A stretch of DNA of 64,000 bases from Motilimonas sp. E26 (GTDB lineage Bacteria; Pseudomonadota; Gammaproteobacteria; Enterobacterales; CBDFNC01): the NCBI RefSeq assembly GCF_021278025.1, contig NZ_JAIBHJ010000004.1, positions 1 through 64,000 on the forward strand, given 5' to 3'. Numbering within the stretch: position 1 is the stretch's first letter; each line of letters starts with the position of its first letter. Below the pieces are notes generated by a model. It ran no database searches and was not told the DNA's origin. It worked only from the letters and a program-made list of their open reading frames with translations. The position numbers and the translations under genes are program-made. Of the stretch, positions 43,072-61,011 are shown piece after piece.

Positions 43072-43176
43072 AGTTTATGAGCACAGAAAGTAAGGTGCAA
43101 ACAAACACAAAGGGCTGTGGCAACATCAAGTTTAAGCAGCAGACCCTGGATATTAAAGCTTAATAGGAGAAATACC

Positions 43177-43992
43177 ATGGCTCTTTATGTAAACACCAAC
43201 GTTCAATCAATGAACTCACAACGTAACTTAACCAATTCAACAGATGCATTATCTCAATCATTTCAACGTCTGTCTTCAGGCCTGCGTATTAACAGTGCTA
43301 AAGATGACGCAGCTGGGATGCAAATAGGTTCACGTTTACAAGCGCAAGTGAATGGTTTAAACCAAGGCGCACGTAATGCTAATGACGGTATCTCTTTAGC
43401 ACAAACAGCTGAGGGCGCCTTAGATGAAACGACAAATATGCTACAACGCATGCGTGTATTGGCGCTGCAATCAGCGAATGGTTCGAATACCACTGCTGAC
43501 CGTGCAGCCCTAAACAAAGAATACACTGAGTTACAAAGCGAAATAACTCGTGTTGCGTCAACCACAACCTTCGGTGGTGTAACATTATTAGATGGTAGCT
43601 ACAGCGCAGCATTCCAAGTGGGTGCGGACCAAAGTCAAACCATTGATGTACGAGTGTCTGTGTCTATGGATGCTGCTGCTCTTGGTGTAGATTCAGGTAT
43701 TTCAACTGCAGCATTAGCACAGACTGCGATTGCTGACCTCGATTCTGCATTAGCAGCAGTTAATGATAAGCGGGCAGATTTGGGTGCAAAACAAAACCGT
43801 TTTTCATCAACTATACGCAACTTAACTAACATTGCTGAGAACGTATCAGCGTCTAAATCTCGTATTATGGATGCTGATTTTGCGCAAGAATCGGCTTCAA
43901 TGGCACGGAACACTGTTATGCAGCAAGCTGCAAGCTCTATGCTCGCCCAGGCTAACCAACAGCCACAAATTGCCCTATCATTAATAGGTTAA
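43177..43992 (+). CDS. Flagellin (second copy, sigma-28 type promoter)
   Basis: This is a 271-residue filament subunit, a tandem paralogue of the first flagellin with the same D0-D1-only architecture ([58 protein letters not shown]). The ATG follows taggaga. The upstream frame extension to 43117 crosses the promoter and leader and is not real. Codon choice again suggests strong expression. A hairpin follows the gene. Confidence 0.96.
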
Positions 43993-44524: not shown

Positions 44525-45907
44525 ATGGCGACACTAACGGGTATTGGATCTGGATTGGATCTTGAAAGCATCATATCTACCTTTGTTAAAGCAGAGCAAA
44601 GTACTCGAGTCGCTTCTATTAATGAGCGTGAATTAGATGCGACGGAAGAATTATCTGGAGTAGGTACTCTTAAATCATCCCTATCTCAATTCCAAGATGT
44701 ACTCAAAAAGTTATCAAATCCTGACACTTTCTTTCAGAATAAGTCTTCATATTCTTATCTCGGTAGTACAGATAATAATAGTAATATAATAAAGGCAACC
44801 ACCGATGGCGTAGTAACTGGAGGCACCTTTGAAGTTGAGGTTCTGAAACTCGCTCAAGGCTCTCGGCTTGACTCTACGCCGGGGGCTTTTTCTGCTGCAA
44901 CGGATACCGTTGGTAGTGGGGTACTAACATTTGGTGCAGGTAGTAATACCTTTGATATCTCAGTTGACGCGACCGATACACTGGAAGATATTCAAAAGAA
45001 AATTAACGACTCAAGTGATAACTTCGGCGTTAAAGCAAATATAATTAACTCTGATGCAGGCCCTGTATTGACTTATACCTCTGAAGTAACAGGCCAGGCA
45101 AATCAATTATCAGTGACTAATAATAATGCCAGCTTAGCGGCTATATCAACAGGTATGGTATCGGCAAAAAACGCAACGGATGCAGAGATCAAAATTGATG
45201 GTCAGACGGTGACATCATCAACCAATACATTCTCAAATGCGATCAGTGGTATTGCATTGGAAGTCAGTAATTTGACGCAAGCAGGGGAAAAACTCACTTT
45301 GGATATAGGGGTTGACACCGACGGTGTTGAAGCCTTAATCAATGATTTCGTTGACGGCTATAATGCATTACAGAAAACACTTAATGCTTTATCTGACCCC
45401 ACGAATGGGCCGCTTGCATTCGACTCAAGTATTCGCAGTTATGAATCACAGCTCCGATCAATTGTTGGCTCTCCTGTGACAGGCACATCCGGTGCCTTAT
45501 CAATGCTTTACGATGCAGGTATCACGATGAATGCTGACGGTGAACTAGAAGTGTCAAGCATCATGAAAAATGGGCAGCAAAGTGGTAGTCAGCGTTTGGA
45601 TAGCGCTATTTCTAATAACCTTGCTGATCTTGGCGCATTATTTGCAGGTGACGATGGTGTGGCAAAACAATTAAGTACGTTTACGGCGTCTTACTTGGAA
45701 AACGGTGGTGTCGTACAAGAGCGTGAGGCAGCCCTCAAGGATTCTCTCACTCGTGTTGCTGACGATAGGGAAAAACTGGGTCGTTATATGGAATCTTATG
45801 AGGCTACTCTGAGACAGAAATATACCGCATTGGATGTAACGATTGCTCAATATAATGCGACTAGCTCTTACATAGAAAGTGTATTGAAACCCATAGAGAA
45901 AAAATAG
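44525..45907 (+). CDS. fliD: Flagellar filament cap protein FliD (HAP2)
   Basis: This 460-residue cap protein helps flagellin fold at the filament tip. The N-terminal LTGIGSGLDLESIISTFVKAE is the family signature. The C-terminal part ends in a coiled coil (LGRYMESYEATLRQKYTALD, MxxQxNATSSYI-like). It lies 31 bases after flaG and is followed by fliS. Confidence 0.96.
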   Translation: MATLTGIGSGLDLESIISTFVKAEQSTRVASINERELDATEELSGVGTLKSSLSQFQDVLKKLSNPDTFFQNKSSYSYLGSTDNNSNIIKATTDGVVTGGTFEVEVLKLAQGSRLDSTPGAFSAATDTVGSGVLTFGAGSNTFDISVDATDTLEDIQKKINDSSDNFGVKANIINSDAGPVLTYTSEVTGQANQLSVTNNNASLAAISTGMVSAKNATDAEIKIDGQTVTSSTNTFSNAISGIALEVSNLTQAGEKLTLDIGVDTDGVEALINDFVDGYNALQKTLNALSDPTNGPLAFDSSIRSYESQLRSIVGSPVTGTSGALSMLYDAGITMNADGELEVSSIMKNGQQSGSQRLDSAISNNLADLGALFAGDDGVAKQLSTFTASYLENGGVVQEREAALKDSLTRVADDREKLGRYMESYEATLRQKYTALDVTIAQYNATSSYIESVLKPIEKK

Positions 45908-45926: not shown

Positions 45927-46352
45927 ATGCGGGCTAATATAAAAGCGTATCAGAATACAAATCATCAATCATCATTGCTTGCCGCTGATCCACATCGAGT
46001 CATTCTGATGTTGATGCAAGGGTTGGTTGACACTCTTGCTGTTGCTAAAGGCTGTATTATTCGAAAGGATTTTGAAGGAAAATCAAAATCATTAAACAAA
46101 GCGATTGGTATTATTGCAGGCCTACAAGATGGCATTGATATGAAACAAAGCCCTGAAATAGGTGAAAACTTCTATCAGTTATATGATTACATGATAAGAA
46201 GGTTAGGCGAGGCTTCTGCTGATCAATCTGGCCAGCAAATTGATGAAGTTGTCTCTTTAATCTCACCAATTAAAGAGGCATGGGAAGGTATCTCAGAAGC
46301 GGATAAAGCAAAAGCAGAGCAAATGCGAGCGGCCCAGAATTCAACAGCATGA
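45927..46352 (+). CDS. fliS: Flagellin export chaperone FliS
   Basis: This is a 141-residue helical protein that binds the C-terminus of flagellin before export. Signatures include AYQNTNHQSSLLAADPHRVILMLMQG (in parts) and LYDYMIRRLGEAS. Its stop overlaps the next start in an ATGA, indicating coupled translation. Confidence 0.95.
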   Translation: MRANIKAYQNTNHQSSLLAADPHRVILMLMQGLVDTLAVAKGCIIRKDFEGKSKSLNKAIGIIAGLQDGIDMKQSPEIGENFYQLYDYMIRRLGEASADQSGQQIDEVVSLISPIKEAWEGISEADKAKAEQMRAAQNSTA

Positions 46353-46666
46353 TGCGAACAGAGCTTACTAAAAAAATTGAATATTTGACCTGCCGCGCTA
46401 GTGAATTAATTGCAGGAGAGAGTATAGAGGAATTAAATCAAGTTTTGTTGCAACGTCAAAACTTGATTGAACAACTGTGGAATAGCGCTAACCAATCTGC
46501 TACAACATCAGAAATTAAAGACTTTTTACTTTCTATTCAAGCTCGTGATGCTAATCAGTTAAACCAACTTAGTCTGCTAAAGCAAGCACTCAAACAGCAA
46601 GAGCAGGCTCGCAAGTTAGCTAACGCTAAGGTGTCAAAATACATAGCGATAAATAAATTTAGGTGA
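46349..46666 (+). CDS. fliT: FliT-like flagellar chaperone
   Basis: This is a 105-residue helical protein (for example IEELNQVLLQRQNLIEQLW). The position directly after fliS and the size fit FliT, the chaperone of FliD, but sequence conservation in that family is poor, so this rests mainly on context. Its start overlaps the fliS stop. Confidence 0.75.
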   Translation: MMRTELTKKIEYLTCRASELIAGESIEELNQVLLQRQNLIEQLWNSANQSATTSEIKDFLLSIQARDANQLNQLSLLKQALKQQEQARKLANAKVSKYIAINKFR

Positions 46667-46673
46667 CCCAACC

Positions 46674-48761
46674 ATGTCCGACATTCCCAGTGCTCCCCCC
46701 TCATTTGCTACACCTTCGATAGAAGAGACAATTGCTCGTGTCCCCTATATAGCAAAAGATTATCAAAGTGTTTTTGCAAACAATATTAAAGCCTTTCAAG
46801 ATTATATTCCCGCAATAGCAGAAGCTTTCGCTCATTACCAACCTGAAAAATTCGAATTAGTAGCGACCGATTTCAGTGTTGATTTAGTAACTAAAGGTAC
46901 AGATGAGCTAGTATTTGGTGGTGATGCTTTTCGTACTAGTTTAATGGACTTTGAATATTTTAAGCGCTCTCCACAAACGACTAATTTCTCTGTTAAGCGC
47001 GGTAAGCATGAAAATATAGCGAACTTTATACATCTTGATTTTCTTGAAAAATTTATCGCATTAGAAAAAAAGTATGAAACGAGTATAAGTAAAGAGGCTT
47101 TTTTCCCAGAAGCATTAGGCATGCTCATTTGTTTTGGCCTAGGGACGGGGTTTTACTTAGAAAATCTGATTTCGACACATGAAGTTAATCGGATATATAT
47201 TTATGAGCCTAATCATGACTTTTTTTATGCTTCATTACACCTAATTGATTGGCATTACATTTTAACTACGCTAGATGAAAAAGGTGGCTCACTTCATCTG
47301 AGCTTAGGGGGGGATGAGGAGGTTTTTTTTGCTGATTTAGGTTCAGACTTATTTAGAAAAGGTCGTTATGACATATCTAAAGCATTTGTGTATGAGCATT
47401 ATTTAGATGAGAAAATATCGAATGCAGTGAAGTTGTTTAAGTTAAAGTCGTATGAGTTAGTATATGGCTTTGGTTTTTTTGATGATGCTTTGATGGCCGT
47501 TGCTCATCACTATCATAACTTGAGAACTAGCCCTGCAATTGCTGTTAAAGAACCACTTACATGTAATGCAACGGTACCTGTATTCATCTGCGGCAATGGC
47601 CCTTCCTTAGACAAGAACATGGCGTTGATTAAAAACCATGCTGATAGAGCCATTATTGTCAGTTGCGGCACAACAATTGATAGCTTGTTAAGAAATGGTA
47701 TTTTGCCTGATTTTCATGTTGAACAAGAGCGAACCCGCCCAGTGCATGACCGCTTACTTTCTGTTGACAAATCACTGTTAAAAAAAATTCCTTTTTTATC
47801 AATCAATACAGTGAGCCCAGAGGTGTTTGGTTTATTTGAGAGGAGAATGGTAGGTCTTAAGGCTGATGAGCCATCAACTTTGCTTACACGCTCTTTAAGC
47901 CATTTAGGTACTTCCATTAAGCGTGTTGCTTACTGTAATCCAACAGTGGCTAATTGTGCGTTAACGCTTGTTGAGGCGTTAGGCTTTAGAGAGTTTTATT
48001 TTATAGGTACTGATCTTGGCTTTCCTTTTGGTCAACACCACAGTAAAGATAGTATTTACTACAAAGAAGATGGCGAAGATAAAGCCTTATTTGATTTAAA
48101 GGATCAGAACCACCTTGAACTACCTGGTAATTTTGGTGGCAGTGTTCGTACTAGTAGTGCTTTTGGCTATTCAGCTCAATCATTAACTGCATTCATTACA
48201 AGATCCCCTCATATTAACTGTTTTAACTTGAGTGATGGTGTGTTCGTAGAAGGTGCTCAGCCATTAGAGCCTCACTTACTCGAATTAGGTACCTCAGCAA
48301 TTGATAAAAAAGAGATTGTTGATCGCTGCTTTGACTATTACCACAGAGATTGTATTGATTTAGCAATAGAATTTGAACAAGGCCTAAGTCAATTAAATTT
48401 TGACGAATTTATAGATGGTTTGATTGAAATAACATATGAGCCACAGGTAACACGTTTTGATGCGCTAACTAATTTATATAGGCAATATATTTACCTTGAA
48501 TCAGGTGGTGAGCAAGAAAGTTTATACTTCAGGGATATGATTCGCGGCAGTATCTTGTATACCCACACCATTCTCAGCCGAATATTGCAAAGTATTGAAG
48601 ACCCAGAAATAGCTGTGAAAGTGAATTTGGAAGGCTTAGAAATATTGAGAGATTACTTAGAAGCAATAAAAACAAAATATCATCAGAAGTTACTCCATGC
48701 TGATACCACAGAAATGCTTTCAGAATGGCGTGATAAAACCATTTTTAAGGTGGATGAATGA
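46674..48761 (+). CDS. Maf-type motility accessory factor (flagellin glycosyltransferase)
   Basis: This is a 695-residue cytoplasmic protein of the Maf / MptE-like (DUF115) family. The N-terminal Rossmann-like domain includes GLGTGFYLENLISTHEVNRI. The central MptE-like domain (about 300-470) has CGNGPSLDKN, DFHVEQERTRPVHD and FYFIGTDLGFPFGQHHSKDS. The C-terminal third is helical. Maf proteins transfer nonulosonic acids such as pseudaminic acid to Ser and Thr of flagellin in Campylobacter, Aeromonas and other genera. The start lies eight bases after fliT, so it appears to be part of the flagellin-cap operon. The sugar donor is likely the product of the genes at 59944-64000. Confidence 0.92.
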   Translation: MSDIPSAPPSFATPSIEETIARVPYIAKDYQSVFANNIKAFQDYIPAIAEAFAHYQPEKFELVATDFSVDLVTKGTDELVFGGDAFRTSLMDFEYFKRSPQTTNFSVKRGKHENIANFIHLDFLEKFIALEKKYETSISKEAFFPEALGMLICFGLGTGFYLENLISTHEVNRIYIYEPNHDFFYASLHLIDWHYILTTLDEKGGSLHLSLGGDEEVFFADLGSDLFRKGRYDISKAFVYEHYLDEKISNAVKLFKLKSYELVYGFGFFDDALMAVAHHYHNLRTSPAIAVKEPLTCNATVPVFICGNGPSLDKNMALIKNHADRAIIVSCGTTIDSLLRNGILPDFHVEQERTRPVHDRLLSVDKSLLKKIPFLSINTVSPEVFGLFERRMVGLKADEPSTLLTRSLSHLGTSIKRVAYCNPTVANCALTLVEALGFREFYFIGTDLGFPFGQHHSKDSIYYKEDGEDKALFDLKDQNHLELPGNFGGSVRTSSAFGYSAQSLTAFITRSPHINCFNLSDGVFVEGAQPLEPHLLELGTSAIDKKEIVDRCFDYYHRDCIDLAIEFEQGLSQLNFDEFIDGLIEITYEPQVTRFDALTNLYRQYIYLESGGEQESLYFRDMIRGSILYTHTILSRILQSIEDPEIAVKVNLEGLEILRDYLEAIKTKYHQKLLHADTTEMLSEWRDKTIFKVDE

Positions 48762-50074
48762 GTTGTAAGAGAGCGGTCGTCGTAGGTGCTGGAGTTGTTG
48801 GCCTTGTTTCGGCATTTATCCTACGCAAACAGGGCTTTGACGTTACCATTATTGATAGTGAGGCTGAGCCTGGGGGATTGCTAAGAAGCATAAAAACAGA
48901 TTTTGGTGCGTTTGATTATGGCACTCATGTTGCCTCTTCTTCGGGTATTGATGAGCTTGACGACTTTATGTTTAATCATGCCAATGGAGAGCTAAAACAG
49001 TTTGACACGGGCCATTCTGCTAGTTTTTATGATGGACGCTTAAGCTCTATCAGTCCCTTTGTTAATTTGTCAGAGCGGGAAGATGCAATGGTGCTTTCTT
49101 ACTCATTACTGGAGCAACAAGGGAAAAATACATCACCTAAAAATTTGGAAACTTTATATCGTAATCATTACGGAGATTTAATTTTTGAAAAGGTTATACG
49201 ACCCATTGTATTGAAATATTTTGGCTGTCCAGCTCATCAATTAAGCCCTGCATGTTTTTCCTTTTTCGATTTAAATAGAGTATTGGCTTTTAATCCATCT
49301 ATTTCAGAACAGTTAAAGCAGCTTGATGATTATAATTGTCGCATTGGTTATCATCATGCGTCTTCAGGTGCTGCAAAATACTACCCTAAACAAGGAGGCA
49401 TTGGCCGTTGGTATCTATTGTTATTAGATAAACTAAAGTCTCAGGGGGTGAAAGTATTGACTGGCTGCCAATGTAAAAACTTCGAACAAGATAGAGACAA
49501 CTCGATCAAAAGTATCAGCACATCACAAGGCATGCTTGATACAGATCTTCTCGTTTGGTCTGTTCCGAGTGCATTTTTAGCTCGTTATTTAAACAGTACA
49601 TCAGCGCCAGAAAGACCGGTGTTTAGAAATACGGCATTATTTCACTTTGCATTTGATAAACCGTTACTAACAGATGCTTACTATATTAATGTACATGAAC
49701 CTGAATTCTTAAGTGGTCGAGTCACAGTGTACCAGAATTTAACGGATGATAATGATGTATACCGAGTAACGGTTGAAGCCTTAAATGAAGAAGGTTATGA
49801 CTTTCAAGCTAGCATTGATCATGTAATTAAAGAACTAAATACCATGGGTATAATAGATCATCGTCATCACTGTTTGTATCAAAATTGCGTTGAAATAAAA
49901 AATGGTTTTCCTGTTTTAAGCGCAAAGGGCCACGCTAATCAGATTGCTTATAATGAGCACCTAACCGCTTCTTACCCAAATTTAGTGTTAGTAGGCCGAG
50001 GCAGTGGTAAAGGCTTTTTTATGGCGGACCTATTAATCCAAGCGGCTGAATTAATCAAAGGACGATTAGTATAA
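48758..50074 (+). CDS. FAD/NAD(P)-binding oxidoreductase (UDP-galactopyranose mutase/amine-oxidase-like)
   Basis: This is a 438-residue flavoprotein. The dinucleotide-binding GAGVVGLVSAFILRKQGFDV motif is at the start, with DSEAEPGGLLRSIK following, as in UDP-galactopyranose mutase and protoporphyrinogen oxidase relatives. The C-terminal FAD-contact region is LVLVGRGSGKGFFMADLLIQ. The substrate is unknown. It overlaps the maf stop by four bases and is followed immediately by a methyltransferase, so it probably tailors the flagellar sugar or its lipid or nucleotide carrier. Confidence 0.8.
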   Translation: MSCKRAVVVGAGVVGLVSAFILRKQGFDVTIIDSEAEPGGLLRSIKTDFGAFDYGTHVASSSGIDELDDFMFNHANGELKQFDTGHSASFYDGRLSSISPFVNLSEREDAMVLSYSLLEQQGKNTSPKNLETLYRNHYGDLIFEKVIRPIVLKYFGCPAHQLSPACFSFFDLNRVLAFNPSISEQLKQLDDYNCRIGYHHASSGAAKYYPKQGGIGRWYLLLLDKLKSQGVKVLTGCQCKNFEQDRDNSIKSISTSQGMLDTDLLVWSVPSAFLARYLNSTSAPERPVFRNTALFHFAFDKPLLTDAYYINVHEPEFLSGRVTVYQNLTDDNDVYRVTVEALNEEGYDFQASIDHVIKELNTMGIIDHRHHCLYQNCVEIKNGFPVLSAKGHANQIAYNEHLTASYPNLVLVGRGSGKGFFMADLLIQAAELIKGRLV

Positions 50075-50794
50075 ATGACGACTTATTACCATGCTTATGG
50101 GGCAAGAGCCTCATCTATTAATAATCACACGCAAATTGCAGGCCGGTATGGAGTGCAGGAACTTGCCGAAAAGCGTATTGTGCCTGATATCCTCCATAAA
50201 TTGGATTTGCAAGCCACCGATAATCTATTAGAAATTGGTTGCGGAACAGGTAATTTATTGATCCCGATGTCCTTTATATGTCGCAGTGTCACCGGTATCG
50301 ACCACCCGAGTTGTTTAGATAAGTTAACAAAGCGATATCAACATAGCGGTCAGTCATTAGTTGCTGGTAACTTTCTTGATGTTGATCTGATAACCTTGCC
50401 AAAGTTCGAAAAAATCTTAGTTTACAGTGTACTACATTGTCTTGCAGATGAAGGCGAGGTGTTTGATTTTATAGATAAAGCGCTAAAGTTACTTAAGCCC
50501 GGCGGGCGTTTGCTATTAGGAGATATACCCAACAAAGATAGAAAGAACCGTTTTTTGAGCTCTCAGGCTGGCGCGGACTTTTTAACTGATTGGAATGAAC
50601 AAGTGAAACAAAGTGGTATCGATGAGCCCGCGTTTGAAGCGGTAACTTCCAGTGTCGGTTTTGATGATCAATTAGTACTACAGATATTGGCACATGTACG
50701 CCGACAAAACTGTGAAAGCTATGTTTGCTCTCAGCCTTGTGATTTGCCATTTGGCAATACAAGGGAAGATATAATTGTACAACTTGGTGCGTAA
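50075..50794 (+). CDS. SAM-dependent methyltransferase
   Basis: This is a 239-residue class I methyltransferase with a clear motif I (LLEIGCGTGNLLIPM), the acidic residue of motif II (VTGIDHPS) and motif post-II (LLKPGGRLLLGDI). The acceptor is unknown. It starts directly after the oxidoreductase stop and overlaps the next gene by one base, within the Maf operon. A role in methylating the flagellar glycan is a reasonable inference. Confidence 0.85.
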   Translation: MTTYYHAYGARASSINNHTQIAGRYGVQELAEKRIVPDILHKLDLQATDNLLEIGCGTGNLLIPMSFICRSVTGIDHPSCLDKLTKRYQHSGQSLVAGNFLDVDLITLPKFEKILVYSVLHCLADEGEVFDFIDKALKLLKPGGRLLLGDIPNKDRKNRFLSSQAGADFLTDWNEQVKQSGIDEPAFEAVTSSVGFDDQLVLQILAHVRRQNCESYVCSQPCDLPFGNTREDIIVQLGA

Positions 50795-51711
50795 TGATTG
50801 ATCTTTGGCGCGAACACCCCAATGTGCTCCCTTGTGGAGAAAGTGTTGCTAATGAAAATATTTTTGCTAGTGGAAGGCAGGCTATTCAGCAATCGATGCT
50901 CGACTTAAATTTGACGCGTGTAAGTCGAATAGCATTTCCTGAGTTTAGCTCTGCTTGCGTTATTTCTTGTCTTGGGCGTATCGCCACTCCAATACCAATG
51001 GCGGAAGTTGTTCGCTATGATATGAAGGTTGATGCAATACTTATTTATGAGCAATGGGGGTGGCCTCTACCAGCGTCAGTCATAGAGTCGGTGAAGCAGT
51101 ATAGTGATTATATTATTGTTGATGCGGTTGATTCGCCTGATGCCCTCATTCGCTACTCAAATGTCACTGATGGTTATACTTGTATTAGTTTATATAAATG
51201 CCTTGGATTAGCTCTTGGAGGATTATTGAGTTATCAGGGAAAGTTACAAGTTGTTAAGAATGGCCGCACGGCTCCTTGTCCTCTTACTTTGGATAATGTC
51301 TTAAACGTAGACATAGCAAAATCTTACTACAATAACATCGATTTAATTCAACCTGATATCCAAGGTGACTTAATACAGGCATTGGCGATGGAATCAAAAG
51401 CTAGGCAAAAGAATTTGTCCCGTTTAGCTGAAATAGGTTTATTTCAACAATGGCCCTTGTGGATGCATAAGGTTGTTGAATATCGCTCAGGTGCACCGGG
51501 AATAGCACCTTTATTCCACTCTGAGACGGCAGAGTTTCGGATGAAAAAGCAGTTGAAGTTAGCCCAACTGGGTATCAAGACCGCACTTTATAATTTTAAT
51601 TTTTCCGGTTCCCCAATCGCAGTTGATTACAGGCCATGTTTAGCTTTCCCGTTGCACAGTGAGCTTGTTTGGTCAGACAGATTAAAGGACATCTTACAAA
51701 GTGGTGAATAA
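50794..51711 (+). CDS. DegT-like PLP-fold protein, N-terminally short
   Basis: This 305-residue protein is not confidently recognised. Parts resemble DegT/DnrJ/EryC1 sugar aminotransferases. YIIVDAVDSPD could be the aspartate that contacts the pyridoxal nitrogen (Asp110). ISLYKCLGLALGGLLS resembles the loop with the catalytic lysine (Lys135). At 305 residues it is shorter than the usual 370-400, and the conserved N-terminal glycine-rich part is not obvious. It may be a divergent or inactive relative. It is the last gene of the plus-strand Maf operon and converges on the minus-strand genes, overlapping the next by 18 bases. Confidence 0.6.
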   Translation: MIDLWREHPNVLPCGESVANENIFASGRQAIQQSMLDLNLTRVSRIAFPEFSSACVISCLGRIATPIPMAEVVRYDMKVDAILIYEQWGWPLPASVIESVKQYSDYIIVDAVDSPDALIRYSNVTDGYTCISLYKCLGLALGGLLSYQGKLQVVKNGRTAPCPLTLDNVLNVDIAKSYYNNIDLIQPDIQGDLIQALAMESKARQKNLSRLAEIGLFQQWPLWMHKVVEYRSGAPGIAPLFHSETAEFRMKKQLKLAQLGIKTALYNFNFSGSPIAVDYRPCLAFPLHSELVWSDRLKDILQSGE

Positions 51712-51957
51712 TTTTGTTATCTCATACTCTATAATATCGGCTACAAACAATATATCGCGGCGCTGTTGAGCTGCGAATAGCACTTTTAATATGTTGTTTA
51801 GTTGCTCCGTTTGCTGCTGTGTTAGGGTTCGTTGCTCTTTTTCTATTGTGTCAATCAACACCACTAAGTGCTGGTTTCCTGCCGCTTCTTTTCCTTGCCT
51901 AAAAAGCTGTGCGACAGCCTTTAACTGTGATCGCAGATCAGTATCGTCTATGTCCAT
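51694..51957 (-). CDS. Small helical protein of unknown function
   Basis: This is an 87-residue, probably all-helical protein (EKEQRTLTQQQTEQLNNILK, DILFVADIIEYEITKLF). I do not recognise the family. It overlaps the end of the upstream Maf-like gene by ten bases and converges on the PLP-like gene, so it is likely translated together with that Maf-like protein. An accessory role for the Maf-like protein is only a guess. Confidence 0.6.
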   Translation of the reverse strand: MDIDDTDLRSQLKAVAQLFRQGKEAAGNQHLVVLIDTIEKEQRTLTQQQTEQLNNILKVLFAAQQRRDILFVADIIEYEITKLFTTL

Positions 51958-53222
51958 AATTGGGCTCCATTTATTTCGGCTCCATTGGGGCTTACGCTAT
52001 AAAATTTCACGTTCGGGTGTAGCGCAATGTAGTCCTCTAAATCACGTAAATATCCTCGTAAATTGGGTAGGGTGCAAATATATTCCTGTTTCCAATTCTT
52101 TACTAAGTGGACGCCCATATCATCAATACTTGGAATTGTAAAATTTGTTGGCCAAAACGCGTGCGTTGTATCGTAGGGGTAGCCAAAATCTGCACCCACC
52201 AAAATGATTTTGTCAGCTCCCATTTTTACTGCAAGATCCACAGCTGGATGCAGCACGCTTCCGGCACTGAATAGTCTCATTTTTGGATAAATGAGGTTTA
52301 TTGGGTCGAATAGAGCTCCAACTGAATAGCTGCAATAACGAGGGCCTAGCCACCTCTTCAATAAGCTGGATGCCATTCGTGGAAAGTAAGCTAATGAGGT
52401 GTTGCGATAGACCTCTAAATCAAGCTGTTCAAAGCAAATATCAGGTTTGGGATCAATCGTCACAACGATATCAGGAATAATATTTTGGCTATCTAAGGGC
52501 CTTAATGCTGCATCTACTGCAATTAATAACGTATTTTCAGGGCGTTGCGCTAATAGAGCGTAATGATCAGCCAAGGTCGGCCCAGCAGCGGCAATATACA
52601 CTTCTTTTTTATACTTGTAAGTTGAAACGAGCTCACGTGCATCATGGTCTGATTTGATCAATTCAAGGTTATGATTTATCTGCTCTTTGGCGACTTGGTT
52701 GTGTTGGTGATGCGAATCGATAAACTCAGTATCTAACTCAAGGCATACCTTATCTCTTAATCTCATCGCACTGTCCTCTGCTAGAACTAATTCTGCAGGA
52801 CTAGCGAGAAAGGGGTATTTCACTTGGTTGCAAGTACGAGCGAGCACGAGATCTACTTTAGGGTTGCTTAACCATTGGTGTTGGCCAAATTTAAGCAAGG
52901 TCAATTTAAAAACTGACAAATTTAAGATCACCACTGTTATTTTTAATAAATCTTCACGAGTGAGAAGTTGATTTATGGCATGGCCTAGAGCAGTACCATA
53001 TACTGTCACCTCCTGAGCTGATGCTCTAATTAGGCTGCACTGTACACTCGCCTCAGCGGTTTGATTGTAGCAACTGGTTAATTGGATTCCGTTGATAACA
53101 AAGGTAGCCTGTGGCTCATTCACAACTTCAGGGTTTATTGCTGGTGATTGCAGTAGCTTTCGATAGGTTTCAGGCCATCGTTTCGCTATCAGAGTAAGAA
53201 AGCTATTTTCTTGATTAATCAT
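51948..53222 (-). CDS. Second Maf/DUF115-type protein (short form)
   Basis: This is a 424-residue protein with an MptE-like (DUF115) core: YIAAAGPTLADHYALLAQRP, DIVVTIDPKPDICFEQLD, ILVGADFGYPYDTTHAFWP. It lacks the C-terminal helical third of the 695-residue Maf at 46674. Its transferase role is inferred from the family. It might act on a second flagellin site or a second sugar, or be a regulatory partner. It lies four bases after the upstream acyltransferase-like gene and overlaps the small gene downstream. Confidence 0.85.
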   Translation of the reverse strand: MINQENSFLTLIAKRWPETYRKLLQSPAINPEVVNEPQATFVINGIQLTSCYNQTAEASVQCSLIRASAQEVTVYGTALGHAINQLLTREDLLKITVVILNLSVFKLTLLKFGQHQWLSNPKVDLVLARTCNQVKYPFLASPAELVLAEDSAMRLRDKVCLELDTEFIDSHHQHNQVAKEQINHNLELIKSDHDARELVSTYKYKKEVYIAAAGPTLADHYALLAQRPENTLLIAVDAALRPLDSQNIIPDIVVTIDPKPDICFEQLDLEVYRNTSLAYFPRMASSLLKRWLGPRYCSYSVGALFDPINLIYPKMRLFSAGSVLHPAVDLAVKMGADKIILVGADFGYPYDTTHAFWPTNFTIPSIDDMGVHLVKNWKQEYICTLPNLRGYLRDLEDYIALHPNVKFYSVSPNGAEINGAQLWT

Positions 53223-53226
53223 CTGG

Positions 53227-54291
53227 TTAAGTCACCTTTTGAATATCGAGTATCAATGTTTGTTTTAATCGCATTTCTGAGGCAAAGCTTGCTTTAAATT
53301 GACCAATATCTTGCTCTTTCTCGGATGGTTGAAACCATTCTCCTTGGTAGCATCTTGCCCCAATATGATAGGTTTTTATTGCACAGCTGCGCATATGCTC
53401 TATAGCTAACCACTGTACGCCATGCGCAATAGGAAACTGAAATAAACTTCGGTCATAGGCGGCGATGGCATAAGCGCTTAGTTCTGTACTTGTTAAAAAT
53501 TGAGCTGCGCCAATAAGTTTGCCTTTATCATAGACAAAAATAGCGAACGATAATCCTTGCTCAGTGAGTCGTCGCTGCGTTTCCCAATTGACACTCGAAC
53601 GGGTGATGCGGCCAGCGACTTGCTGGTGTAAATACGAAAATGCATCTCGTTGCGCTGTGCTCATGTATGTTATCAGCTCAAAATCCCACAATGATAAAGC
53701 CTGCTTGATGGTTGACTTACAGCCCTTCGACAGCTGTTTTCTGTAGAGTGAGGTTGATAATGTTAAATCGACAAAGCATTCATGGCTGGCCTGGAGTTGA
53801 GCCCCTTGCATCATCCACGCCTTAGTCCATAGCTCATGATGATTCCAGCCTTCAATTGTACAGGTTGTCAATTTTTTGACACTTAAATCATCAGCGAGCA
53901 AATACAAGCTTTTTAAACAGCACTGTATGATGCTTTTCTGCGATTTTTCCGCTAGCACCGATTTAAACATGGGGGGTAATACTGGGCTGGAGTTACTTAA
54001 AATATGATATTCATCTACTACCGAATGAATATTGAGCGGCCAAATCGCAGCAGGTTTACCATCTTGGAAAACCATTATTGGTAATCGTAGCGTTTCGCAA
54101 CTGGAAAACGAGTTATAGGACTGGGCATAGTCACCGAGTTGCCACTGGTATTCTGGGGCTAGAACCTTAATTTCATGACAAAAATGCTGCCAGCTTTCGT
54201 TATTCGCCAGACTAATGGTAAGTGCGGGGTAATCTCTACAGGCTTGCTCTAATTTAGCTAACGCCCACGATATTGTGATCTGTTGCAACAA
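53227..54291 (-). CDS. FemAB-like GNAT acyltransferase
   Basis: This is a 354-residue protein whose second half (about 185-345) resembles the GNAT/FemAB-type domain (SKGCKSTIKQALSLWDFELI, GKLIGAAQFLTS, IKTYHIGARCYQGEWFQPSEKEQ). Relatives use aminoacyl- or acyl-CoA donors. The N-terminal half is a divergent FemAB-like half. It heads the minus-strand unit with the short Maf-like gene. The combination suggests it acylates an amino group on the flagellar sugar or carrier. The substrate is unknown. Confidence 0.7.
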   Translation of the reverse strand: MLQQITISWALAKLEQACRDYPALTISLANNESWQHFCHEIKVLAPEYQWQLGDYAQSYNSFSSCETLRLPIMVFQDGKPAAIWPLNIHSVVDEYHILSNSSPVLPPMFKSVLAEKSQKSIIQCCLKSLYLLADDLSVKKLTTCTIEGWNHHELWTKAWMMQGAQLQASHECFVDLTLSTSLYRKQLSKGCKSTIKQALSLWDFELITYMSTAQRDAFSYLHQQVAGRITRSSVNWETQRRLTEQGLSFAIFVYDKGKLIGAAQFLTSTELSAYAIAAYDRSLFQFPIAHGVQWLAIEHMRSCAIKTYHIGARCYQGEWFQPSEKEQDIGQFKASFASEMRLKQTLILDIQKVT

Positions 54292-54530: not shown

Positions 54531-55433
54531 ATGAACAATGCCCCTTTATCCCAACTGTTGACTGAGATTGGCCGTATAAATCCATTACAAACTCAATTTT
54601 TAGATCGCAGTTTGAGTGTTCTTAGTGCTCAAGAGCGCACGACATTTCTTCAATATCTCAATTACTGCCTCGCTCAAGATATTACGGTGGAGCACTTGGC
54701 TAAATCATATGATTTAATTGTGAAGGATACTTTTCGTGAGCAAGTGTATTTCCGTCGACATGGCCAATACCGACATCAAAGTTACCAAGAAGTGGCTAAT
54801 TCAGTGTATCATCACCCTGAGTATATGAATCAATATATGCATGGCTTGGCGTTGTCGACGTTTCTTTGGCCTAATCATTTGGCCATGTATCGCTTTTTTA
54901 TTGAAACTTTACCTAAGCAACGAACCGGGCGTTATCTTGAGGTCGGTCCTGGTCACGGTTTTTACTTTATGAAAGCGATGCAATGTAGCCAATATAACTT
55001 CTATCAAGGAGTCGATATTAGTGCCACTAGCGTTGAGATGACTCAGCGGATTCTCAGTTGTCCCCATTTTAATTGCTCAGCGGATTACCTTATTACCGAG
55101 GCCGATTTTTTTGCGTGGGACTCGACGCAAACATTTGATTGCTTAGTGATGGCAGAAGTACTCGAGCATGTTGAGCAGCCTGGCGCATTTTTGCAACAGC
55201 TATATACGCTGGCTAATGAAGGCGCGCATGTTTTTATTACCACTTGTATTAATACGCCAGCGATAGATCATATTTATTTATACCCCGATATGCAGAGCTT
55301 ACGTCAACAAATTAATGAAAGTGGTTTTTCAATTAAAAATGAACTTGTAATTCCTTATTTAGGTAAAACACTCGAGGAAACCGTTGTTGATAAACTACCG
55401 ATTAACACTGCGATGGTATTGGAAAAAAGATGA
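54531..55433 (+). CDS. SAM-dependent methyltransferase (module gene 1)
   Basis: This is a 300-residue protein with a C-terminal class I methyltransferase fold (about 135-260; YLEVGPGHGFYFMKAM as motif I, FDCLVMAEVLEHVEQPGAFLQQL as the post-motif region). An acyl-carrier or ligand-binding helical region occupies the first 120 residues. The likely role is O-methylation of an acyl group on the carrier protein or on the sugar, by analogy with the methyltransferase in the corresponding Campylobacter region. It overlaps the next gene by four bases. Confidence 0.85.
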   Translation: MNNAPLSQLLTEIGRINPLQTQFLDRSLSVLSAQERTTFLQYLNYCLAQDITVEHLAKSYDLIVKDTFREQVYFRRHGQYRHQSYQEVANSVYHHPEYMNQYMHGLALSTFLWPNHLAMYRFFIETLPKQRTGRYLEVGPGHGFYFMKAMQCSQYNFYQGVDISATSVEMTQRILSCPHFNCSADYLITEADFFAWDSTQTFDCLVMAEVLEHVEQPGAFLQQLYTLANEGAHVFITTCINTPAIDHIYLYPDMQSLRQQINESGFSIKNELVIPYLGKTLEETVVDKLPINTAMVLEKR

Positions 55434-55843
55434 GCGACTGGCAACTTAGATTTCACCATTTTGGTTTAGCCGTTCATGACCCAAAAGCAGCGCGTATCTA
55501 TCTCAAAGGCTTGGGCTATCAGCTTGGTGAGGCGCTTTATGATCCGCTGCAAAAAGTAAATTTACAAATGGCTGAACATGCTAACCAGCCGCGAGTGGAG
55601 CTCGTTTGGCCTGCAGGCGAGTCGGGCCCCTTAGACAATATTTTGCAGGGACAGCAAGGGATTATTTATCATACGTGTTACACGGCAAAGGATGTTGAAA
55701 AAAGTATCGTTTCCATGCAGCAGCAAGGTTTACGTATTGTTCCCGTTTCAGCGCCAAAACCGGCGATATTATTCGCGGGTAAATATGTCTCTTTTTATAT
55801 CGTGCGAGGTGTGGGTTTGATCGAGGTGTTACATGATGATTGA
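55430..55843 (+). CDS. VOC (glyoxalase-fold) family protein (module gene 2)
   Basis: This is a 137-residue vicinal-oxygen-chelate fold protein. It resembles methylmalonyl-CoA epimerase and glyoxalase: FHHFGLAVHDPKAARIYLKGLGY at the start, and metal-ligand-like residues in HTCYTAKDVEKSI and YIVRGVGLIEVLH. In this context an epimerase or isomerase on a carrier-bound acyl group is plausible. It is coupled by overlapping ends to both neighbours. Confidence 0.8.
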   Translation: MSDWQLRFHHFGLAVHDPKAARIYLKGLGYQLGEALYDPLQKVNLQMAEHANQPRVELVWPAGESGPLDNILQGQQGIIYHTCYTAKDVEKSIVSMQQQGLRIVPVSAPKPAILFAGKYVSFYIVRGVGLIEVLHDD

Positions 55844-57629
55844 GCCAGCACTGACATTTACACAGATGCAATCTCGGTTGGCAAGTATAGATAAAGCGGC
55901 ATTAAAACCACTTAGAATCTCGATATTAAGAAATATTACATTAGAATCTATCGCGATACCTCTGCAGTACTATGCCGCTCAGTCTGGTTATGATGCCCAA
56001 TTAACATGGGGTGGATTTGATACTTTATTGCAAGACGCATCAAATCCTGAACTTGTTAACGACAAAACCGATCTTATTTTGATCTACCCGCATCTTTTCA
56101 TGACATTACCTGCTATAAATGAAAAATTTTGCCAGTTAACGCCATTGCAAAGACAGCAAGAAGCGGACTTTTTCTTAGCAACCGCTCTCCAAGTATTAAC
56201 TCAACTAGCGACCACGTCGCCAACAGCGAGTATTATTTGGCATGACTTTGAATTACCAATCAATCCGAGCTACGGGCAAGCCGATACCTATTTACCCCAT
56301 GGGCAAAGCACATTTATTCATCATTTAAATATTCAGCTTCATAAACTGCTTGAAACCTTTAATTCCGCTAAATACCTATCAAGTGAACGAGTAATGCGAA
56401 GCGTTGGCACAGAGCATTTTTATGACTGGCGTTATTGGTTTGCGGCTAAAGCGCCGTACAGCAAAGAAACTTTAATTGAACTGGCAAAACAGGCCATGGG
56501 GCTGTTTCACATTCAACATCAAGCCGCAAAAAAATGCTTGGTACTTGATTGTGATAATACATTGTGGGGAGGTGTTATCGGTGAAGATGGGCTTTCAGGG
56601 ATCCAACTTTCACCACATTATCCCGGTAATACGTTTTATGCCTTTCAGGCTGCGATTGTTGAGCTATATCATCGTGGTGTGCTGATCGCGCTTTGTTCAA
56701 AAAATAATGAAGAAGATGTGTGGCAGGTTTTTGATCAACATTTACATATGTTGTTGAAAAAAGAACACATCGCCGCCGCGAAAATTAATTGGCAAGATAA
56801 GTCGACTAATTTAGCTGAAATCGCTGATGAGCTAAATATTGGTATCGATAGCTTGGTATTTCTCGATGACAGTCAATTTGAAGTTGAACAGGTTTGTCAT
56901 CAATTGCCAATGTTGACCGCCGTATGGCTAGATCCTAAATCAAGAGCTACTTATGCAAATAAATTAAATGCATCGACTTGGTTTGATACGTGGCGACAAA
57001 CCGATGAAGATAAATTACGTGGACAGATGTTGCAAACGCAAAAAAAACGTCAAGCGTTTAAACAACAGCATTCGTTGTCGGATTACCTTCAGGGATTAAA
57101 TATGTGTTTAACGGTGAAAGAGGCAAGCGAAGCGGATATTCCGCGTGTGGCACAACAAACACAAAAAACCAACCAATTTAATTTGACTACACTGCGTTAC
57201 AGTGAAGGACAGATCAGGCAATTTATCGAGAGGGAAGAAGGCTTTATCCTTACTGCCTCACTTAATGATAGGTTTGGTGAGATGGGGCTTGTTGGCTCTG
57301 TTTTGATTCGCTATATCAGCGATACCAAGGCTGAAATAGACACCTTGCTACTGTCTTGTCGTGCCTTGGGCCGTCAAGTTGAATATGCTTTCTTAAGCGA
57401 AGTGATTAAAATTTGTCGCGCTAAGGGAATAAAAAACATAACGGCACGACGCATTCAGACCGATAAAAATGCGCAGACAGCTGATTTTTATGTGAAATCT
57501 GGATTTGTATTAACATCAAGCGTCGAGGATCCCACGACCCAAGAATACGAATGCCCAGAATTTAATCCGCTCATCGCACCTTCTTTTATTTGTATTATTA
57601 ATGAGGATGAACCATGCAACAAAAACTAG
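55833..57629 (+). CDS. FkbH-like HAD protein (glyceroyl-carrier loading; module gene 3)
   Basis: This is a 598-residue FkbH-type protein. The N-terminal region (1-225) is SGNH-like. The HAD-IIIC domain follows with CLVLDCDNTLWGGVIGEDG (catalytic Asp239 and Asp241) and LVFLDDSQFEVEQV. A GNAT-like domain covers about 430-590 (ALGRQVEYAFLSEVI). In polyketide pathways FkbH-type enzymes take 1,3-bisphosphoglycerate and load a glyceroyl group onto an acyl carrier protein. The next gene encodes such a carrier and overlaps the end of this gene. This is the best clue to a glyceroyl-derived decoration. Confidence 0.9.
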   Translation: MMIEPALTFTQMQSRLASIDKAALKPLRISILRNITLESIAIPLQYYAAQSGYDAQLTWGGFDTLLQDASNPELVNDKTDLILIYPHLFMTLPAINEKFCQLTPLQRQQEADFFLATALQVLTQLATTSPTASIIWHDFELPINPSYGQADTYLPHGQSTFIHHLNIQLHKLLETFNSAKYLSSERVMRSVGTEHFYDWRYWFAAKAPYSKETLIELAKQAMGLFHIQHQAAKKCLVLDCDNTLWGGVIGEDGLSGIQLSPHYPGNTFYAFQAAIVELYHRGVLIALCSKNNEEDVWQVFDQHLHMLLKKEHIAAAKINWQDKSTNLAEIADELNIGIDSLVFLDDSQFEVEQVCHQLPMLTAVWLDPKSRATYANKLNASTWFDTWRQTDEDKLRGQMLQTQKKRQAFKQQHSLSDYLQGLNMCLTVKEASEADIPRVAQQTQKTNQFNLTTLRYSEGQIRQFIEREEGFILTASLNDRFGEMGLVGSVLIRYISDTKAEIDTLLLSCRALGRQVEYAFLSEVIKICRAKGIKNITARRIQTDKNAQTADFYVKSGFVLTSSVEDPTTQEYECPEFNPLIAPSFICIINEDEPCNKN

Positions 57630-57829
57630 TCGATATTCTGAGCCAAACACTAAACGTGTCACCTGAACTGATTACGCTAGCGTCAGATTCAACGAACATT
57701 GAGAGCTGGGATTCTCTTGCGCACATGAACTTGATATTTGCCATTGAAGACAGTTTTGACATCCGCTTTACCGATGAGCAATTAACTAATTCGATGAGTG
57801 TTAAGCAGTTACTCGAGATTATTAGCTAG
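57614..57829 (+). CDS. Acyl carrier protein (module gene 4)
   Basis: This is a 71-residue stand-alone acyl carrier protein. The attachment site for 4-phosphopantetheine is Ser34 in SWDSLAHMNLIFAIEDSF. The acidic helical character fits. It overlaps the FkbH-like gene by 16 bases and is followed one base later by the AAC(3)-like gene. It is a specialised carrier, not the fatty-acid ACP. Confidence 0.93.
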   Translation: MQQKLVDILSQTLNVSPELITLASDSTNIESWDSLAHMNLIFAIEDSFDIRFTDEQLTNSMSVKQLLEIIS

Positions 57830-57830
57830 G

Positions 57831-58652
57831 ATGGGTAGTTACGTTGACGGAAAGCGTTATCACTATACTCAAGATGACATTGTTACGGCCTTAAGAGAGG
57901 CTGGAGTTGTCGAAGGGGATTTAGTGTTTAGCCATATTGCTTTGTTGCCTTTGGGGTTGTTAAAAGAAATGCAAGAGGGGCAGTCACTGGTTAATGTGTT
58001 TGTTGAAGCAATAAAAACAGTGTTAGGGCCTAAAGGGAGCTTTATTACGCCAACCTTTAGTTATAGTTTTTGTCATTCAGCTCCGTTTGATAATCGCTCT
58101 ACACCTTCTGCTGTTGGCGCCTTTAGCGAGGTGTTTCGCGGCTTACCGGGCGTTTCTCGCTCTAATGACCCCCTTTTTTCTGTTGCTGGTTTTGGTCCAC
58201 ATGCTTTATCGTTATTTAGCAATTTGCCTAATACCAGTTTTGGCAAAGATAGTTTTTTTGAACGCCTACTGTCAACGCCTTGTAAAATTTGTAATATCGG
58301 ACTCGATTTACGCTACTTAACCTCTATCCACTCCCTTGAAAAAAAACTGAATGTGCCTTATCGCTTTGATAAAGCCTTTACTGGTGAGCTCAATGGTCAC
58401 AGCTCAACTTGGCAATATTATGTTCGTTTATTGTGCGAAAATAGTGAGGCGGATTGTTTACCATTACAACACCTTGGTGAGCATGCTGGCTTAGTTAAGC
58501 AAGTCGCTCTGGGTCGAGGGTCGTTATTTGCGGTTGAGCTTCAGCCGTATATAGAGCTCGCTCTAAGGCAACTAAAGTTGAATCCTTGGTTTTTAGCTAA
58601 AGGCCCTGAATTAACAGAACAGCAATTAGCAGAAATTAAGGAGCAATCGTGA
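57831..58652 (+). CDS. AAC(3)-like acyltransferase (module gene 5)
   Basis: This is a 273-residue protein of the aminoglycoside 3-N-acetyltransferase fold (GVVEGDLVFSHIALLPLG, GPKGSFITPTFSYSFCHS, RSNDPLFSVAGFGPHA, with the conserved His-Asp-like catalytic pocket). The setting argues for transfer of an acyl group from the neighbouring carrier protein to an amino sugar rather than antibiotic resistance. I chose the ATG one base after the carrier-protein stop; an upstream frame would overlap that gene. Confidence 0.85.
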   Translation: MGSYVDGKRYHYTQDDIVTALREAGVVEGDLVFSHIALLPLGLLKEMQEGQSLVNVFVEAIKTVLGPKGSFITPTFSYSFCHSAPFDNRSTPSAVGAFSEVFRGLPGVSRSNDPLFSVAGFGPHALSLFSNLPNTSFGKDSFFERLLSTPCKICNIGLDLRYLTSIHSLEKKLNVPYRFDKAFTGELNGHSSTWQYYVRLLCENSEADCLPLQHLGEHAGLVKQVALGRGSLFAVELQPYIELALRQLKLNPWFLAKGPELTEQQLAEIKEQS

Positions 58653-59947: not shown

Positions 59948-61011
59948 CGTGACGATAAGGATTTTGTGATCTTATCCCAACTTATCGCCTGACCTTTTTC
60001 GAGAGATACTTGTGCCTTTAGGCCTAATACCTCGGGGTAATGCTTAGGGGCTAAGCCATAGCCGGGCCGAATTCGCTTGATGTTATCTACCGTTAATACT
60101 TCGCCTGCTTTAATGTCTTTCACCGCATATATTGAACGGCGAAACGGTAAGTTACCTAATTCAGCAGGCTTTCTCTCATAATTTACTGTGCCTGTGGCAG
60201 AATGCACTTCTTTGATTAATTGGCACAACTCGGCCAGCTCGGTAGGCTCGAGTGAAAATGCGGCATCTGGGCCACCATCACTGCGTTTAAGGGTAAAGTG
60301 CTTTTCAATCACCGCAGCCCCCAGTGCTGTAGCGGCTACAGCAGCACTATGGCTTAAACTATGATCGCTCAACCCCGAATGGCAATTAAAGCGATGATGC
60401 AAATCTGTCAGTGTAACTACGTTTGACTGAGCAACAGGGGTAGGATAGCCACTAATACAATGCAATAGACAAAAATCTTGATGCCCCATTTTAGTTAAAA
60501 ATTGATGGAGTTCGGTGATTTCATCTAGATCAGCAAGGCCTGTCGAAATGATCATCGGCTTTCCAGTTTTTGCTACATACTCAATAAGAGGAAAGTCTAG
60601 CGCTTCAAAAGACGCGATTTTATACGCTGGTGCGCCTAGCCTTTCAAGCAAATCAACGGCTGTTTCATCAAATGGGGAGCTAAATAAAGTGATCCCAACC
60701 TCACGGGCTTTTTTAAATAGTGCTTGATGCCATTCCCAAGGGGTATGCGCTTGCTGGTAGAGCTCATAGAGGGAATAACCATCCCATAAGCCACCCTTAA
60801 TTTTAAATTCGGCTTGATTGGCATCTATGGTCATTGTATCAGCGGTATAAGTTTGGATTTTCACGGCATCGGCACCGACCTGTTTAGCCAGTTCAATTAG
60901 CCGAAACGCGTTGTTAATGTCGCCATTATGATTAGCTGAAATTTCTGCAATCATATAAGGCAATAAACCATTGGCGATAGCTCGGCCATTAATTTTCATA
61001 GGGCTAGGCAT
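59944..61011 (-). CDS. pseI: Pseudaminic acid synthase
   Basis: This 355-residue enzyme condenses a 2,4-diacetamido-trideoxy hexose with phosphoenolpyruvate to make pseudaminic acid. The NeuB domain (about 15-280; YMIAEISANHNGDINNAF, DAVKIQTYTADTMT, GLWDGYSLYELYQQAHTPWEW) matches the PseI subtype better than sialic acid synthase NeuB. A C-terminal SAF domain (about 290-350; RRSIYAVKDIKAGEVLT) completes it. Its start overlaps the stop of the PseG-PseH gene. The gene converges on DUF4910. Confidence 0.93.
   Translation of the reverse strand: MPSPMKINGRAIANGLLPYMIAEISANHNGDINNAFRLIELAKQVGADAVKIQTYTADTMTIDANQAEFKIKGGLWDGYSLYELYQQAHTPWEWHQALFKKAREVGITLFSSPFDETAVDLLERLGAPAYKIASFEALDFPLIEYVAKTGKPMIISTGLADLDEITELHQFLTKMGHQDFCLLHCISGYPTPVAQSNVVTLTDLHHRFNCHSGLSDHSLSHSAAVAATALGAAVIEKHFTLKRSDGGPDAAFSLEPTELAELCQLIKEVHSATGTVNYERKPAELGNLPFRRSIYAVKDIKAGEVLTVDNIKRIRPGYGLAPKHYPEVLGLKAQVSLEKGQAISWDKITKSLSSR

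Follow-up and report, generated by a model that had tools for sequence, protein, structure and literature searches.

A recurrent candidate sugar-tailoring cassette with a FemAB-like transferase in the flagellin glycosylation island of Motilimonas sp. E26

A 64-kb stretch of the genome of Motilimonas sp. E26 (the window; genome G000) carries the flagellin glycosyltransferase gene maf1 behind the chaperone gene fliS and a fliT-like open reading frame (ORF). Directly after maf1 follow genes for a flavin adenine dinucleotide (FAD)-dependent oxidoreductase (fadox), an S-adenosylmethionine (SAM) methyltransferase (mt1) and a pyridoxal phosphate (PLP)-like protein (plp), and a FemAB-like gene converges on them from behind a second Maf gene, maf2. 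A role of this cassette in sugar tailoring is well supported; the observations are its gene order, homology, synteny and recurrence with nonulosonic-acid genes, a FemX-type fold in a structural model and conserved residues. In our fullest reading, which we hold at slightly less than even confidence, fadox, mt1, plp and the FemAB-like enzyme would aminate, aminoacylate and methylate a sugar of the pseudaminic type, which Maf would then transfer to flagellin.

For the substrate, the sequence of reactions, the donor of the aminoacyl group and the position that is methylated, we propose the following. The core pathway would deliver a cytidine monophosphate-activated sugar of the pseudaminic acid (Pse) type. 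The DegT-fold PLP enzyme would install or expose an amine on this sugar, with the FAD enzyme perhaps generating the keto group. The FemAB-like enzyme would then acylate the amine with an amino acid from an aminoacyl-tRNA, and mt1 would methylate, and so cap, the acylated product. Maf1 and Maf2 would load the finished sugar on flagellin, Maf1 acting in the cytoplasm. We propose, more tentatively, that the cassette serves to aminoacylate nonulosonic acids in a tRNA-dependent manner, with a FemX-like enzyme acting on the amine of a flagellin sugar and the methyltransferase modifying the product.

Flagellin glycosylation islands, maf genes after fliS, methylated nonulosonic acids and flagellin glycans bearing amino acids are already known. 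Literature comparisons here draw on the available parts of the cited papers. Among the literature matches listed, which leave out most subscription journals, we found no assigned function for an FAD-methyltransferase-PLP-FemAB cassette, no report of tRNA-dependent acylation of a nonulosonic acid and no occurrence of TIGR04421, TIGR04422 or IMCC1989. The word "pseudaminic" does not occur in the available text of the Motilimonas genomics paper (PMC13182010). If the proposal holds, several bacterial lineages would have a direct link between charged tRNAs and the glycosylation of flagella, and a FemAB-like enzyme using aminoacyl-tRNA would offer an explanation for the amino acids found on bacterial sialic-acid-like sugars. 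The gene junction, itself common, pointed the way to an uncharacterised cassette that recurs in association with nonulosonic-acid clusters and that offers a small set of genes for experiments in an environmental marine genus. The genes concerned are listed below.

44525-45907 (+): fliD, filament cap, named by position
45927-46352 (+): fliS, flagellin chaperone (PF02561, 3.5e-32)
46349-46666 (+): small fliT-like ORF overlapping fliS by 4 bases, named by position
46674-48761 (+): maf1, Maf flagellin glycosyltransferase, long form (PF20157, Maf_flag10_N, 2.5e-50; PF01973, MptE-like, 6.3e-30)
48758-50074 (+): fadox, FAD-dependent oxidoreductase resembling amine oxidases and UDP-galactopyranose mutase
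50075-50794 (+): mt1, class I SAM methyltransferase
50794-51711 (+): plp, PLP-like protein, putatively of a short DegT fold, related to TIGR04422
51694-51957 (-): small protein, conserved neighbour of maf2; candidate GlfM-type partner by position only
51948-53222 (-): maf2, short Maf-type transferase (PF01973, 4.3e-35), present in 4/4 genus members
53227-54291 (-): FemAB-like transferase, related to TIGR04421
54531-59947 (+): mt2-voc-fkbH-aac3-duf4910 block (Pfam and NCBIfam matches), in the same order in Motilimonas pumila
59944-63765 (-): pseI (neuB), a pseG-GNAT fusion and a class III aminotransferase, core sugar pathway (NCBIfam)

Recurrence of the cassette with nonulosonic-acid genes

Within the genus, four genomes were compared: G000, G001, G002 and G003, the last being M. 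pumila. The order maf1-fadox-mt1-plp returns in M. pumila with identities of 61, 43, 52 and 45%, respectively. In G001 and G002, maf1 is followed by neuB and other sugar genes, and no relative of plp, fadox or mt1 was found anywhere in these two genomes at the thresholds used. Since two of the four genus members keep fliT-maf1 without the trio, the three genes represent an exchangeable insert and do not belong to the chaperone unit. Members of the genus differ in the island that separates maf1 from the flagellar regulator genes, two being of a neuB-pseG type and two of an FAD-methyltransferase-PLP type; its far border is the same regulator-like ORF in all four (FlrA-like by eye).

An earlier note on this DNA, made from the sequence alone, had described a tailoring set of three genes. 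These genes do recur, but they are only part of the cassette, to which the convergent FemAB-like gene behind maf2 and its small neighbour also belongs. A search with plp led to two distant clusters in metagenome-assembled genomes (MAGs), L018 and L019, each with femAB-mt1-plp beside nonulosonic-acid genes, and mt1, plp and femAB occur together in six such clusters overall (G000, G003, G009, G356, L018 and L019). The arrangement varies: G000 and G003 have fadox-mt1-plp with femAB convergent behind maf2, and G009 and G356 have mt1-plp-femAB with fadox convergent, the cassette adjoining maf1, the fliT place, fliS and fliD from the opposite side. In these four genomes, drawn from two families of the order, no more than about 10 kb separate the cassette from flagellin, fliS and Maf genes, and it is located within a Pse island. 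The L018 contig (PBQF01000058.1), titled as a Parcubacteria MAG, also holds neuB and radical-SAM-like ORFs (by eye); a wrong bin label or a moved cluster is possible.

Family searches gave a similarly sparse distribution. The single-sequence search with plp matched 2 of 394 genomes of the order, which understates the family, since G009 and G356 were missed; a two-row profile matched 2 of 369 genomes of the class and added G009, and G356 was found only by inspection of its locus. The TIGR04421 family was matched in 3 of 369 class genomes at 1e-8 and in 10 of 388 order genomes at 1e-10. At all ten order loci, each of which was inspected, femAB lies within 10 kb of nonulosonic-acid genes, and at eight of them it lies within about 10 kb of flagellin genes; in G143 and in G169 no flagellin gene was seen in the 19 kb around femAB. 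Viral contigs gave no match to mt1 or plp. Plasmids gave no FemAB match and a single mt1 match (Azospirillum, 36%), located beside a NeuB-like gene and a GNAT gene without a BLAST match to FemAB.

The fadox and mt1 families match the same 6 of 25 genomes (G000, G003, G009, G356, G352 and G159), a partly circular result, as five of the six positives were already known from their loci. In the independent part of this test, which comprised 12 hand-picked Maf-bearing genomes, G159 has both families and the other 11 have neither. The G159 locus reads neuB-fadox-pseG-methyltransferase-short DegT near maf1 and shows no FemAB match in 18 kb; its methyltransferase is weakly matched (61.8 bits), and the profile of the window's PLP family does not match its PLP gene, which is of a short, PseC-like DegT type. 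In G009, a second FAD oxidoreductase gene precedes a small ORF, another short DegT gene and a gene we take to be WbqC-like, named by eye (L024:11555-12919 and 13388-15078), which hints at another FAD-PLP variant. Given the G159 locus and this second FAD gene near another short DegT, pairing of an FAD enzyme with a PLP enzyme of the short DegT type is frequent; exceptions are G352, which has FAD without plp, and L018 and L019, which have plp with no FAD gene seen.

Fold and family of the cassette proteins

The model of the FemAB-like protein, built from a 13-row alignment, reached a predicted local distance difference test (pLDDT) score of 91.4 and a predicted TM-score of 0.86. In VIA-align, the 11 best rows are FemX, FemA and tRNA-dependent streptothrisamine enzymes, with Z-scores from 20.6 to 23.2. 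Among them are FemX 6snr (Z 23.2, root-mean-square deviation (rmsd) 4.1, 308 residues aligned), FemA 1lrz (Z 21.7, rmsd 4.2, 298 aligned), Sba18 9wqy with streptothrisamine (Z 21.4, rmsd 3.0, 278 aligned) and FemX 1xe4 (Z 21.2, rmsd 3.8, 294 aligned). The next block, at Z 16.8-18.1, contains lysyl- and alanyl-phosphatidylglycerol synthases and one protein of unknown function, and the first tandem GNAT of the coenzyme A (CoA) type appears at Z 16.8. The predicted fold is a double GNAT closest to the aminoacyl-tRNA-dependent FemX and FemA. Foldseek likewise placed FemX on top (1ne9, E 3.4e-12, TM-score 0.65). In addition, one of the 13 family members matches arginine-tRNA-protein transferase models.

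Phe304 and Lys305 of FemX are essential (PMC4964394); in DhpH-C, the essential residue is Lys329, with a contribution from Phe328 (PMC12945691). The FemAB-like protein carries Phe332-Lys333, a pair that is invariant in 13/13 family members. By arithmetic on the aligned ranges (26-354 against 1-328), and not by residue-level superposition, Lys333 would fall at about positions 307-308 of 1xe4, two to three residues from Lys305.

For the oxidoreductase, Pfam reports NAD_binding_8 (PF13450, 7.3e-13) and Amino_oxidase (PF01593, 1.4e-4), sequence matches in the PDB are carotene desaturase, protoporphyrinogen oxidase and UDP-galactopyranose mutase, and the glycines of the GxGxxG motif are conserved in all six aligned relatives. 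The methyltransferase matches Methyltransf_11/12/25 (PF08242/PF08241) and has relatives at 48-52% identity in three other clusters. Its best NCBIfam match is NodS, a nodulation N-methyltransferase, which is weak (34.8 bits, cut-off 300), and no protein-methyltransferase family of NCBIfam matches it well.

As a PLP protein, plp is weakly identified by sequence, with no Pfam match above cut-off, and its fold model appears DegT-like. The model resembles DegT sugar aminotransferases, KdnA included (DesV, Z 14.1, rmsd 3.5, 235 aligned), and TIGR04422 is matched at E 0.01 by 6/6 aligned relatives. Asp110 and Lys135 are kept in the same six and, from the alignment, would bind PLP. PDB sequence searches with both cassette-family profiles returned no match at E 1.

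The claim that the three genes stand outside the textbook pseudaminic pathway held: their Pfam and NCBIfam families differ from PseB, PseC, PseH, PseG, PseI and PseF, and the Pse enzymes are encoded at 59944-63765 and beyond. The distinct sugar variant suggested at the same time agrees with our data insofar as relatives of fadox, mt1 and plp sit in nonulosonic-acid clusters, which makes a modified sugar the best guess.

Alternative functions of the cassette

Several observations weigh against tRNA-dependent aminoacylation by a four-gene set. The FemAB-like protein scores 156.8 bits against TIGR04421 (FemAB_IMCC1989), below the curated cut-off of 250, and is related to this family but not a member of it. 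None of the 13 members of its own family matches PF02388 (Fem) at E 0.01; seven of them match Acetyltransf_6, and GNAT-fold proteins can use acyl-CoA. The tandem GNAT MAB_4324 ranks third in Foldseek (E 4.8e-12, TM-score 0.46), so that Foldseek E-values alone do not separate the tRNA from the CoA type. For plp, the TIGR04422 score of 19 bits is below the curated cut-off of 75, the model is mediocre (pLDDT 71, and below 50 for residues 134-147 around Lys135) and the best Foldseek rows have TM-scores of at most 0.5. The gene content also varies. No fadox was seen with the cassette in L018 or L019; in G352, femAB converges on fadox-mt1 and plp was not seen; in G199, G094 and G017, femAB follows maf1 with another methyltransferase-like ORF (by eye); G143 and G169 have femAB alone, with neither mt1 nor plp nearby, and in G674, from the class search, femAB lies behind pse genes, again without mt1 or plp. 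With FemAB lacking mt1 and plp, accompanied by another methyltransferase or without plp in several loci, the four genes are not an obligate set.

It is conceivable, though somewhat unlikely, that the trio makes a distinct amino or O- or N-methylated nonulosonic acid and that no amino acid is involved. The FAD enzyme would oxidise a hydroxyl, the PLP enzyme would transaminate the ketone (e.g., at C8), the methyltransferase would act on the new amine or on a hydroxyl and FemAB would add an acyl group from CoA. Such a route would suit the likeness of the plp model to sugar aminotransferases including KdnA, the weak NodS match of mt1 and the G159 cluster, in which FAD, MT1-like and short DegT genes stand together with no FemAB match in 18 kb. 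An 8-amino nonulosonic acid is moreover reported for the O-antigen of Flexibacter maritimus (PMC3210612). However, VIA-align places tRNA-dependent above CoA-dependent enzymes, FemAB clusters with the methyltransferase and the PLP protein in six cases, and the class III aminotransferase of the island could already perform such an amination. Shewanella japonica was dropped as an 8-amino precedent because its sugar is 4-epilegionaminic acid, according to the available description; hence only Flexibacter is cited.

The two remaining alternatives take the trio out of flagellin glycan synthesis, in part or altogether. That the genes are ordinary island cargo (e.g., for an O-antigen or capsule sugar), sharing an operon by location only and leaving the flagellin glycan unaffected, appears improbable: the insert is missing from two of the four genus members, and in the available stretches of L018 and L019 the cassette is present but a flagellin gene was not seen; however, in four genomes of two families it lies close to flagellin, fliS and Maf genes within a Pse island. 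Methylation of flagellin lysines by mt1, with the neighbouring genes serving other steps, has a precedent in Shewanella oneidensis, whose flagellins bear methylated lysines besides a glycan (PMC3765264). We consider it very unlikely here, as mt1 recurs in the nonulosonic-acid clusters L018 and L019, where no flagellin gene was seen, and lacks a good match to protein methyltransferases.

The fliS-maf1 junction, the island and related systems

The order fliD-fliS-(fliT place)-maf1 is kept in 4/4 genus members. The product of fliD shares 71-73% identity with the ORFs in the same place in G002 and G003 and 54% with that in G001. The fliT-like ORF gave no match above cut-off in the Pfam and NCBIfam scan; against ORFs in the same place it shares 31% identity with that of G002, matches that of G001 only over 50 amino acids (aa; E 0.008) and does not match that of G003. 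As described before, maf1 begins at the eighth base after fliT, i.e., behind a gap of 7 bases, and the ends of the following genes, all on the + strand, overlap or adjoin: maf1 and fadox overlap by 4 bases, fadox and mt1 abut with a gap of 0 bases, and mt1 and plp overlap by 1 base. AGG-type ribosome-binding sequences precede maf1, fadox and mt1; none is obvious by inspection for plp, which fits translational coupling.

A terminator or promoter between fliT and maf would have spoken against a shared operon. Pattern scans found no terminator-like and no sigma-70-, sigma-54- or sigma-28-like site on the + strand at 46000-46700, a result that is not evidence for co-transcription. Counts in these scans were at chance for sigma-54 (51 against 44 expected) and above chance for sigma-28 (36 against 23). 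RNA folding gave no clear structure (z 0.25 for the fliT-maf gap, -1.33 and -0.71 for the end of plp), and Rfam at its gathering threshold gave no match in 40000-64000. The genes from fliT to plp are packed as a single transcription unit would be and may be co-transcribed. Elsewhere in the window, an exact sigma-28-type consensus match lies at 28122-28148 (-) and an exact sigma-54-type match at 31004-31019 (+), just upstream of a + strand ORF at 31050.

PF20157 was matched in 63 of 197 order genomes and FliS in 146. In at least 29 of the 63 Maf-bearing genomes, Maf lies within 1 kb downstream of FliS on the same strand. This is a lower bound: 50 Maf genomes have a listed FliS match, 29 of them adjacent and 21 not; 13 have no FliS among the matches listed, including G001, which is adjacent by its locus; and second FliS copies may be missed. 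The fliS-fliT-maf junction is therefore ordinary in the order, and because this adjacency is common, a special chaperone-Maf coupling was rejected as a distinctive feature of the locus. The proposed coupling of chaperone production to glycosylation remains reasonable but is not new. In Aeromonas caviae, maf1 was complemented with about 170 bp of upstream sequence predicted to carry its own promoter (PMC3426422), and glycosylation precedes binding of the chaperone, which favours glycosylated flagellin (PMC4065374). Functional Maf-chaperone coupling is thus already known at the protein level.

The region forms the left end of an island for flagellin glycosylation that is flanked by fliT and by genes for flagellar regulators. 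With a Maf gene after fliS and the fliT-like ORF and nonulosonic-acid genes in the locus, it has the layout of a Maf-dependent island, whose glycan would be carried by flagellin. PseI (476 bits) and PseG (273 bits) in the window and PseC (545 bits) and PseB (549 bits) in L014 exceed their NCBIfam cut-offs, whereas the PseF-like gene and the portion of the PseG fusion that resembles PseH (26.8 bits against 93.1) are below theirs. A nucleotidyltransferase, which we take to be SpsF-like, stands where PseF would be; this gene, an aldo-keto reductase gene, pseC and pseB come next after 63765, mostly or wholly beyond the window. The aldo-keto reductase and the class III aminotransferase are extra to the Pse core. 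With GC contents of 37.1 and 38.6%, maf1 and fadox are richer in AT than the window as a whole (mean 42.1% GC), and maf1 is in the same place in 4/4 genus members. The 87-aa ORF that overlaps maf2 has conserved counterparts next to maf2 in G001, G002, G003 and G356 and may, by its place alone and with no sequence comparison to GlfM, be the GlfM partner of Maf-2.

The five-gene block at 54531-59947 encodes a methyltransferase, a VOC/glyoxalase protein, FkbH, an AAC(3)-type acetyltransferase and a DUF4910 protein, presumably a relative of Campylobacter jejuni Cj1295. FkbH could supply a glyceryl group. The VOC-FkbH pair also occurs in L019, and the block is probably a second acyl-tailoring block of the same island. 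In C. jejuni, Cj1295, an aminopeptidase-like protein, is needed for dimethylglyceroyl-Pse, and an N-acetylglutamine derivative of Pse is reported (PMC3068675). This derivative, like the peptide on the flagellin glycan of Clostridioides difficile described below, is a precedent for amino acids as substituents of flagellin glycans.

The closest islands known to us from the literature are those for the polar flagellin of Aeromonas (PMC7874193). Some groups contain alpha/keto reductase, class III aminotransferase, methyltransferase, PLP-dependent transferase and GNAT genes, and some group I islands combine an aldo-keto reductase with a class III aminotransferase, as does that of Motilimonas. The available text does not describe the FAD-methyltransferase-PLP-FemAB cassette there; in Motilimonas, maf1 is co-directional with the three tailoring genes. 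S. oneidensis (sfmABCDE) is similar in having two Mafs and, on flagellin, a nonulosonic acid with a further methylated group, and its modification operon includes a methyltransferase and an ATP-grasp enzyme of the amide-forming type (PMC3765264). Compared by description only, that operon differs in that the available text mentions neither a FemAB protein nor an FAD enzyme nor a PLP protein for it. The Maf-1 and Maf-2 plus GlfM sialylation systems (Unay et al. 2024, cited in PMC13317340) also comprise a pair of Mafs, and a small protein is encoded together with the second; the likeness to the Motilimonas 87-aa ORF is one of position.

A FemAB-superfamily protein and a methylated sugar are shared with the type B cluster of Clostridioides difficile, CDR20291_0242-0247 (PMC5207246, PMC5207245). 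There, taurinyl-Ala-Gly is attached to Fuc3N, with glycine acylating the Fuc3N amine (PMC5207245). By description only, the glycan differs in being GlcNAc-Rha-Rha-Fuc3N made via GT1-GT3 and not a nonulosonic acid, and the mutants described in the available parts of both papers do not include the FemAB gene. FemX-type transferases such as Orf11 (PMC12945691) and Sba18/Sbb17 (PDB) share the double-GNAT fold and have a Phe-Lys pair to which Phe332-Lys333 may correspond, and Orf11 acts on an amino sugar, streptothrisamine; the Motilimonas protein differs from them in having no PF02388 match. Upstream of fliD, a second flagellin ORF (43117-43992, +) is called from a GTG at 43117, and comparison with the first flagellin points to 43177 as the likely start (271 aa).

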